Source: Acidobacteriota bacterium
GTDB lineage: Bacteria; Acidobacteriota; Holophagae; Holophagales; Holophagaceae
Length of the DNA stretch: 64,000 bases
Assembly: GCA_016195985.1 (NCBI GenBank)
Contig: JACPYP010000020.1
Location: forward strand, 248,001 to 312,000
Direction: 5' to 3'
The stretch's first letter is position 1, and each line of letters starts with the position of its first letter. Positions 56,882-58,857 of this stretch are shown piece after piece. The notes beneath the pieces are model-generated. The model saw nothing but the letters and a program-made list of their open reading frames with translations. It ran no database searches and was not told the origin of the DNA. Position numbers and translations under genes: made by a program.

Positions 56882-57622
56882 CTACTTCCTGCTGCCCGCG
56901 GGAAGGAGCATGGCCAGGGCGCCCAGCACCAGCGGCCCGCCGATGGACAGGGGCAGCGCCAAAGGCGAGAAGGGGTCCGAGGGCAGCTGGGCCATGGGTA
57001 GCAGGCGGACGAGGATCTCGAGCGCCTTCACCTGGCCCGCCGTCCAACCCAAATCCTGACCGAAATCGAGGAAGAAGCTCAGCCGCGGCCCCAGCTCGCG
57101 GAGCAGCAGGGTCAGCAGCAAGGCCAAGCCGGCGCTGGATTTCAGCAGGCGCGACAACAGCACCGCCCACAGCAGCATCTGCAGGCCCAGCAGCAACCCG
57201 TGCAGATCCGCCCGCAGCAGCTCGGGCGGGAAAGCTTCGCCGACGAGGCGCCAGCTCAGGGCCCACACCGGAATCAGCGCCACCTGCGACAGGAACAGTC
57301 CATGGGCGAAACCCAGCCCCGTGCCCGCGAAGAACCCTTTCAGCCGCTCCCCCCGCGCGGCGGCGGCGGTCCACTGGCTCACGGGCCCGAAGGCTCCCAG
57401 CAGCACCACCAGGGAGACGGCCCAGTACATCGCTCCCACCAGGTTGCCCAGGGCGTAGGAGCGCAGCGAATCAGCCCCGAGCGGAATGGCCGTGCCGAAC
57501 AGCAGAATCTGCGAACCGCCATCCCCCTGCTGGCCCCGCACCGCCATGACCACCAGGCCGGTGACAAACAGGCAGATCAGCGCCCAGGTGATGCGCAGCT
57601 TCGAACTACCAAACCGATCCAT
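56882..57622 (-). CDS. Membrane protein of unknown function, six TM
   Basis: 246 residues with hydrophobic segments near 10-30, 55-80, 98-122, 138-160, 163-182 and 224-244. The layout slightly resembles ABC-2-type permeases, but no ATPase is adjacent and I see no signature. It sits directly upstream of the EnvC-like gene, where many bacteria have ftsX, yet it lacks the large periplasmic loop of FtsX. CTGGAG precedes the start. Confidence 0.65.
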   Translation of the reverse strand: MDRFGSSKLRITWALICLFVTGLVVMAVRGQQGDGGSQILLFGTAIPLGADSLRSYALGNLVGAMYWAVSLVVLLGAFGPVSQWTAAAARGERLKGFFAGTGLGFAHGLFLSQVALIPVWALSWRLVGEAFPPELLRADLHGLLLGLQMLLWAVLLSRLLKSSAGLALLLTLLLRELGPRLSFFLDFGQDLGWTAGQVKALEILVRLLPMAQLPSDPFSPLALPLSIGGPLVLGALAMLLPAGSRK

Positions 57623-57673
57623 GAGGGCTCCAGACGGGATGTTCTGATCATACCCGGCCGCATGAAAGCGGCC

Positions 57674-58048
57674 TCAGTACAGGAGCCGTTTGACCTCCAG
57701 GCTGCGGGTTCCGAAGTTCAGCAGGAGCGCTGTTTTCAGGGCAGCAGCTTTGAGGTAGTTCAGGGTTTGCGCCAGGTGGATATCTTCGATGGCCTTGACG
57801 GCCTTGAGTTCGACAATGACCCTCCCCTCCACCAGGAGATCAGCGAAGAAGGTTCCCACCAGAGACCCGTCATAATGCACCTGGATGGGCCGCTGCTGCT
57901 CAGCCTTAAGGCCGGTTTTCCGAAGCTCATGCAGAAGCGCATTCTCGTAGACCTTCTCCAGAAAGCCGCAGCCCAAAACAGCATGCACGCGGAAGGCGCA
58001 CCCCAAGATCTGTTCCGTCAGCTCCGCATCAGGCCCCAACACCACCAT
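57674..58048 (-). CDS. GxxExxY-family protein
   Basis: 124 residues with the naming motif GFLEKVYENAL and the PD-(D/E)xK-like core LVEGRVIVELKAVKAIEDIHLAQTLNYLK. The family is widespread and its role unproven (a nuclease-like fold). GGAG six bases before the ATG at 58048 sets the start; an upstream in-frame ATG at 58096 runs into the tandem repeats. These genes often lie next to repeats, as here. Confidence 0.85.
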   Translation of the reverse strand: MVVLGPDAELTEQILGCAFRVHAVLGCGFLEKVYENALLHELRKTGLKAEQQRPIQVHYDGSLVGTFFADLLVEGRVIVELKAVKAIEDIHLAQTLNYLKAAALKTALLLNFGTRSLEVKRLLY

Positions 58049-58092
58049 ATGATCTCCGCTGAGTGTTTCAAACGGTTGAAGACCTAAATTAG

Positions 58093-58428
58093 CCACGGAT
58101 TGAACGGATTGACACGGATTCAGGAGCGCACCACCACCCTTCTTTCAAATCCGTGCAAATCCGTGTCCTCCGTGGTCCAAATTTCCGCCCAGATGCCCCT
58201 CTTCGCAGAGCCCACTGAAACCACGGATTGAACGGATTGACACGGATTCAGGAGTGCACCACCACCCTTCTTTCAAATCCGTGCAAATCCGTGTCCTCCG
58301 TGGCCCAAATTTCTGCTCGGATGCCCCTTTTCGCAGAGCCCACTGAAACCACGGATTGAACGGATTGACACGGATTCAGGAGCGCACCACCACCCTTTTA
58401 AAATCCGTACCAATCCGTATCCGTGGTT
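58093..58428. repeat. 128-bp tandem repeats, 2.6 copies, each a hairpin
   Basis: Copies start at 58093, 58221 and 58349 (the last cut short and diverged). The first two differ at only a few positions. Each unit begins CCACGGATTGAACGGATTG and later carries AATCCGTGCAAATCCGTG, its near complement, so each folds into a long stem. There are no spacers, so this is not CRISPR. It occupies most of the 404-base gap between the GxxExxY gene and argR. Confidence 0.92.
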
Positions 58429-58452: not shown

Positions 58453-58857
58453 TCAGCGCGTCGCCGACACCCGCGCCAGGTGCGCCTTCACTTCGGCCAT
58501 GCGCTCGGGCAGCACGGCCACGAACACCGTGTCGTCGCCGGCCAGGGTGCCCATCTGCCCGGGCACCGGATCCGCGTCGAGGCTCAGGCCCAGGGCCTGA
58601 GCGAAACCCGGGGCCGTGCGGAGCACCAACAAGTTCGGCGGCACCTCGGTGACGGTGACCTCGGGCAGCACCTGGGCGGAGGCCTCCACCCTGCGGTAAT
58701 GCCCTTGGACCTTCTGCACGCCCAGCCGCTTGAGCCGCCGGGAAAGGGTGGACTGGGTCAGTTCGTGCCCCTGGGCCGCCAGACGGGCCAACAGATCACC
58801 CTGGTCGGTGATGGAAGCGGTCTCCAGCAGGTGGAGGATGAGGCTGTCCAGATCCAT
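58453..58857 (-). CDS. argR: Arginine repressor ArgR
   Basis: 134 residues: N-terminal winged HTH with the conserved SR (QSTLSRRLKRLGVQKVQG) and C-terminal arginine-binding trimer domain with GDDTVFVAVL (GTIAGDDT-type motif). The ATG overlaps TGCATGAAT repeats, which probably form its own operator. It is divergent from argD and faces the arg genes, so it surely controls them in response to L-arginine. Confidence 0.92.
   Translation of the reverse strand: MDLDSLILHLLETASITDQGDLLARLAAQGHELTQSTLSRRLKRLGVQKVQGHYRRVEASAQVLPEVTVTEVPPNLLVLRTAPGFAQALGLSLDADPVPGQMGTLAGDDTVFVAVLPERMAEVKAHLARVSATR

Follow-up and report, generated by a model that had tools for sequence, protein, structure and literature searches.

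A tandem hairpin array beside argR in an Acidobacteriota genome, probably made of gene-less copies of a GxxExxY-linked mobile element

The tandem hairpin array found next to argR in the window (the whole stretch of DNA analysed, 64,000 nucleotides of an Acidobacteriota contig) is probably built from gene-less copies of a mobile or selfish element that is linked to GxxExxY genes and whose nuclease would read its own word and spread the hairpins. The likely partner of the array is thus the GxxExxY gene and not argR.

Using TRF, the array was delimited at 58093–58422 with a period of 128, 2.6 copies and a score of 576, the top of five rows for the window. Identity is 95% between the two full-length units (58093–58220 and 58221–58348), and the third copy matches unit 1 exactly over its 49-nt left part, so the two near-identical 128-bp units plus a partial third given in the preliminary description are real. 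The same description placed one stem, CACGGATT/AATCCGTG, in each unit; the hairpin holds, while the single stem does not, each arm being composed of about three iterations of a CACGGAT-like word (CACGGATT) with 9–10 bp spacing. As also described, the right arm of the third copy is diverged from that of unit 1, yet it pairs and folds equally strongly (−43.3 kcal/mol for unit 3 on the − strand, −42.6 and −42.7 kcal/mol for units 1 and 2). The six unit/strand RNA folds gave z-scores from −4.9 to −7.3, with 0 or 1 of 200 shuffles equally good. In a word-independent scan, the array was the sole place in the 64-kb window with an iterated-arm hairpin. Rfam 15 gave three matches between 57600 and 59100, all far under the gathering scores, and a terminator scan that detects loops of 3–8 only had no entry at the array stems. 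The recent tandem expansion proposed earlier is plausible, given the 95% identity and a second three-copy hairpin array, with a 108-bp period, among the further sites of the word in the window's genome (G000:C25:77133).

Table 1. Features at the array and its surroundings (positions in the window).
Feature	Position	Strand	Remark
Next gene, far side of the element	56882..57622	−	No NCBIfam or Pfam match
Putative inserted element, approximate extent	57660..58428	.	argR-side edge at about 58428 clear; other edge approximate
GxxExxY gene	57674..58096	−	GTG start at 58096 inside the first hairpin word; alternative ATG at 58048
Hairpin unit 1	58093..58175	+	Arm CCACGGATTGAACGGATTGACACGGATT, loop, complementary arm
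Linker after unit 1	58176..58220	+	
Hairpin unit 2	58221..58303	+	95% identical to unit 1, linkers included
Linker after unit 2	58304..58348	+	
Hairpin unit 3	58349..58426	+	Left arm as in unit 1; right arm different, still pairing
argR-like gene, host context	58453..58857	−	Adjoins the insertion

Iterated arms cluster at GxxExxY genes well beyond the window. Two sets of loci were used. The first had 60 loci in stretches mostly of 12 kb: the best listed match from 50 of the 76 matching phylum genomes, picked for the space on the contig and irrespective of what the flanks contain, five paralogs from the window's own genome and five extras. The second had 80 named loci spanning many phyla, taken as the best of 562 confirmed. 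Taking a three-fold 6-mer with a spacing of 9–11 as an iterated arm, the 60 loci had 0.835 arms per kb up to 300 bp from the gene vs 0.009–0.048 per kb at 0.3–6 kb. In the best 80 of 562, it was 0.989 per kb within 300 bp vs 0.021–0.052 per kb farther out, and 27 of these 80 named loci carried at least one arm within 300 bp. By exact period, the flanks of GxxExxY genes peaked at 9 (41 near, 5 far) and 10 (18 near, 5 far), with a weaker 8 (13 near, 7 far); the far region is about three times the size of the near one. The family itself has at least one match in 76 of 197 phylum genomes and in 40 of 47 genus genomes.

The gene often lies between the arms. An iterated word upstream together with its iterated reverse complement downstream was present in 53 of 140 GxxExxY loci from many phyla, vs a mean of 4.17 and a maximum of 10 when flank pairings were shuffled between loci (1000 shuffles). 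Pseudo-gene controls offset by 0.6, 1, 2 and 3 kb showed no paired arms (0/122, 0/116, 0/104 and 0/97). In a larger, deduplicated set, paired inverted arms were found in 60 of 163 loci; they were lacking at the chosen thresholds in 87 of the 140 and 103 of the 163. The window's own gene, with hairpins on its 5′ side only, is not among the 60. A word common to both flanks in direct orientation was seen in 22 of the 140 loci. Strict two-armed gene-less hairpins within 300 bp of the gene were uncommon (5 of 60 loci), and it was the search for single arms on each side that revealed the layout. In the same genome, the partial paralog L036 is flanked by a CACGGAT arm on one side and by the reverse complement of that arm on the other, and relatives carry hairpins of other words at their GxxExxY genes (CACCGAT at L040, L041 and L045; CACAGAT at L047). 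Among 91 arms from 66 loci with three identical CRCNRAN words, a type defined after seeing the data and with word identity as the selection condition, the outer base was C in 84 and was preceded by A in 74; neighbouring spacers of equal length, whose drift was not so selected, were identical in 21 of 63.

The preliminary description suggested searching for single units elsewhere in the genome, and this search was positive. A BLAST search of the 4.26-Mb genome with the array unit gave 58 matches up to E 10, many of them weak, while the triple-word CACGGAT pattern gave 45 matches at 25 sites (matches merged within 1 kb), with 0 for the reversed control and 0–6 matches in each of the 46 other genus genomes. 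A GxxExxY gene adjoins 2 of the 25 sites (C28 and C30), and one site (C13:103051) has irregular spacing and may be due to chance. Many CACGGAT hairpins (e.g., L012, L014, L017, L019 and L022) are nested with CACCAAG hairpins and CATCCCCTTCATCC/GGGATGAAGGGGATG stretches, forming composite intergenic mosaics in G000; a further GxxExxY paralog of the same genome (C13:129327) has CACCAAG as its word. In addition, CACCGATGAA is tandemly iterated far beyond the usual three at G036:C43:3094-3190, G037:C26:6098-6174 and G037:C61:18471-18527.

Words differ among GxxExxY loci and track the protein tree. With labels from a preset list, which covered 56 of 163 genes, the last letter of the word required 6 changes on the tree vs a shuffled mean of 20.5 and minimum of 15 (500 shuffles), the word core 18 vs 31.3 (minimum 27) and the full word 30 vs 42.3 (minimum 36). 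The CA/CG prefix follows the tree weakly, with 15 changes vs a mean of 18.9 and 6 of 500 shuffles equally low. A careful tree gave 6 changes for the last letter and 31 for the full word. For 29 named loci from 12 phyla, the last letter took 5 changes vs 10.8 and the full word 16 vs 21.5, none of 1000 shuffles being equally low, while the host phylum fitted the same tree weakly (16 vs 18.4; 18 of 1000 equally low). Since the word tracks the protein while the host phylum fits weakly, gene and arms travel together across phyla. This shows co-inheritance of the GxxExxY gene and its arms, which can produce such agreement with the tree without recognition.

The word of the gene is also linked to the number of such arms in the genome, clearly so for CACCAAG and CACCGAT. 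Arms of three words were counted in 47 genus genomes, and of 163 GxxExxY matches in 40 genomes, 118 distinct genes from 35 genomes had their flanks labelled, 59 of them with a word; the p values that follow take genomes as unrelated. The seven genomes with a CACCAAG gene hold 27–61 such arms, vs a mean of 7.9 and a maximum of 48 in the 40 others (p = 3.5e-5). Seven genomes with a CACCGAT gene have a mean of 15.7 arms vs 2.4 elsewhere (p = 1e-4), and the two genomes with a CACGGAT gene, two being all there are, have 45 and 5 arms vs 1.0 elsewhere (p = 0.007). After subtracting 6 arms per count for the gene's own arms, p was 6.6e-5, 0.033 and 0.24, respectively. One genome with a single GxxExxY match and 33 CACCGAT arms (G045) was fetched after the count, and its gene was flanked by CACCGAT. 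There were two exceptions: G023, a genome 58% complete, has 48 CACCAAG arms and no GxxExxY gene found, and in G026, with 20 CACCGAT arms, none of the genes was labelled with that word.

The window's protein matches TIGR04256 with 147.4 bits (cut-off 35) and PF13366 (PDDEXK_3) with 141.4 bits (cut-off 22). An alignment of 17 members has E31, D70, E80, K82, Q94 and Y98 among its invariant positions; of these residues, we take the usual PD-(D/E)XK ones to be catalytic. The structure model has a mean pLDDT of 94.7, and its best solved match is SSO0001, presumably a Cas4 protein (Foldseek E 3e-4; VIA Z 10.2). The next matches (LHK-Exo, AddAB, MGME1, Holliday-junction resolvases, named Cas4 proteins and restriction enzymes) have Z of 8 or below, at which possibly only the arrangement is shared. 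On this model, GxxExxY would be a small Cas4/RecB-like PD-(D/E)XK fold and a predicted nuclease. It resembles SSO0001, AddAB, LHK-Exo and MGME1 in the core fold, in the D...ExK residues and in the spacing of Q94 and Y98, which we take to be the QxxxY motif. It differs from them in being a minimal domain of about 124 residues with 10–20% sequence identity.

The closest known arrangement is REPIN-RAYT, in which REP doublets go together with REP-associated tyrosine transposases (PMC3116915, PMC3686654) and repeat abundance is described as following the RAYT gene with the same kind of exceptions (PMC3686654). Both systems have dispersed intergenic palindromes with gene-less copies and tandem clusters, and in each the repeat also flanks a gene of nuclease type. 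In both, the repeat class varies between genomes and its abundance tends to track the cognate gene, with exceptions. In G000, dispersed palindromic copies are many (the 45 matches at 25 sites), but a RAYT gene is lacking: the search for Y1 transposases with PF01797 gave 0 matches in this genome, the control matching in 5 of 14 genomes. Abundance follows the gene once GxxExxY replaces RAYT, although for CACGGAT in two genomes only, and with G023 and G026 as exceptions. The flanked gene here is the PD-(D/E)XK GxxExxY, and the arms are three iterations of a 7-nt word, often with the gene between them. By analogy, the GxxExxY arrangement seems to work like REPIN-RAYT, but it fails on the gene that defines that class. 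MITEs are short, gene-less sequences with inverted-repeat ends, present in many copies and inserted between genes. The array element is likewise short, gene-less, inverted at its ends, multicopy and intergenic; it differs in that no parent transposase of a known family and no resolved target duplication were found.

The layout also recalls the intervening sequences (IVS) of 23S rRNA. In Coxiella, a gene sits in the loop of a terminal stem according to PMC4990558, and the IVS, with its small ORF in the loop, is regarded as a selfish element. An RNA-level element of this kind would have arms forming a transcript stem that host RNase III cuts, so that the insertion is tolerated, with GxxExxY as a passenger or acting on RNA and the spread taking another route. 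Besides the shared layout, the strong folding of the hairpins as RNA and the iterated inverted arms of IVP genes speak for it. Nevertheless, we consider it unlikely: the words are kept while spacers drift (the 21 of 63 identical), which pairing alone does not need, the arm number in a genome follows the word of its gene, and the fold is like that of DNA nucleases, though tRNA-splicing endonucleases share it at weaker scores. The array element is in any case not a 23S intervening sequence, as it lies between argR and a protein-coding gene and not in 23S, encodes a GxxExxY protein and not an S23/IVP four-helix protein, and its family has a period of 8–10 vs 7 at IVP genes.

That period of 7 comes from 30 IVP loci (PF05635, L268–L297), where it is the peak of the flanks (21 near, 3 far). 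Inverted iterated arms were present in 13 of these 30 loci vs a shuffled maximum of 4, and offset controls gave 0/29 and 0/27. IVP genes were considered as the partner of the window hairpins and rejected, with a period 9–11 arm in 1 of the 30 loci and period 7 in their own arms. The only IVP gene of G000 (C26:125376-125673; L037, L038) matches as two overlapping pieces in different frames and therefore looks broken by a frameshift.

Alternatively, the arms could be operators or self-protection sites of GxxExxY, serving autoregulation or an addiction or defence module, with the dispersed hairpins as by-products. Iterations at about one helical turn do resemble protein-binding arrays, and the word follows the protein. 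We regard this as less probable still, since it leaves unexplained the gene-less dispersed hairpins (25 CACGGAT sites) and the insertions between conserved neighbours.

These insertions are seen at the argR junction. An argR match was found in 41 of 47 genus genomes, and 30 loci were examined, one of them the window's own. Here 834 bp separate argR from the next gene, vs 38–69 bp, measured from where the tblastn match ends, in 19 of the other 29 loci; in L299, which has the most similar argR (91%), it is 45 bp. Four other loci have gaps of 93, 166, 435 and 995 bp, and in the remaining six the next gene was not found beside argR or the contig ended. With 834 bp against 38–69 bp, the array together with the GxxExxY gene appears to have been inserted between two host genes. 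Its argR-side boundary reads CTCGAA, then CCACGG, and no target-site duplication was resolved at the element ends, where the flanks are too diverged. The longer gaps were scanned for a paired iterated word: the 166-bp gap of L314 holds a gene-less iterated hairpin with a different word, CGGAGAT, and none was found in L300, L317 or L325. Given the empty junctions of relatives and the L314 hairpin, argR is a bystander of the array, and hairpins of this kind have entered its junction on at least two occasions within the genus. The 995-bp gap of L300 contains two short open frames that look, presumably, like a DUF433/DUF5615-type toxin-antitoxin pair. The argR-like protein scored 77.6 bits, under the NCBIfam equivalog cut-off of 130, and is therefore taken as a diverged ArgR. 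In the longest GxxExxY frame, the GTG start is the CAC of the first hairpin word read on the opposite strand, and the arm may overlap the start region (58048–58096).

The preliminary description had transcription converging on the array from both sides and suggested that copy number may affect argR mRNA ends. With both genes on the − strand, argR is transcribed into the array and GxxExxY leads away from it, so there is no convergence. Nor is a special tie to argR supported, since the array and the GxxExxY gene are missing at the junction in 19 of 29 other genus loci and the terminator scan, which covers loops of 3–8, has no entry for the stems. A local argR hairpin or terminator expanded by slippage, with GxxExxY adjacent by chance, is very improbable; near-identical tandem units beside argR would fit it, but the array is missing at argR in those relatives, the same word occurs at 24 other sites and arms cluster at GxxExxY genes across phyla. 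Misassembly of a single unit, which the near-identity of the units might suggest, is hardly credible, as about 5% of sites differ between units 1 and 2, and further hairpin arrays of several copies are present both in this genome and in relatives.

Returning to the GxxExxY-linked mobile element, its complete form, as seen in other loci, comprises an outer AAC, an arm in which one 7-nt word (mostly CRCNRAN) stands about three times at 8–11 bp spacing, the GxxExxY gene and the reverse-complement arm. The computations show the association of arms with the gene, the gene placed inside the stem, words specific to each locus, insertion between two host genes and the tie between a gene's word and the arm number of its genome. 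Beyond this, we propose that GxxExxY recognises its own word and acts as a nuclease on the folded arms. Hairpins, alone or together with the gene, would be spread by this action, much as has been suggested for RAYTs and REPINs. At the window's argR site, a CACGGAT element would have entered the junction with the next gene, and its hairpin would then have been amplified in tandem.

In a broader reading, to which we give even odds, GxxExxY and its palindromes would form a separate, phylum-spanning class of selfish two-component systems, in which a Cas4-like nuclease reads an iterated word, the word can switch in concert in every iteration of both arms, and dozens of gene-less hairpins are seeded. 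It would be a convergent counterpart of REPIN-RAYT made from unrelated parts, and IVP genes with their period-7 arms may be a third system. No description of a GxxExxY-palindrome system was found in the openly available literature, so novelty in print is not proven. Searches with the repeat strings returned no match or papers with titles on other subjects. The arrangement, a dispersed palindrome with a cognate nuclease gene, is of a known kind, built here from unrelated parts.

In the literature searched, PDDEXK_3 gave no match and GxxExxY has passing mentions, the two papers that name it giving no role; the locus-specific iterated palindromes supply a candidate substrate. The link to GxxExxY accounts for a class of intergenic hairpins, and the pairs of nuclease and word form a natural series in which specificity can be studied. 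Should the nuclease indeed spread the hairpins, nuclease-linked dispersed palindromes would have arisen from at least two unrelated nuclease folds.
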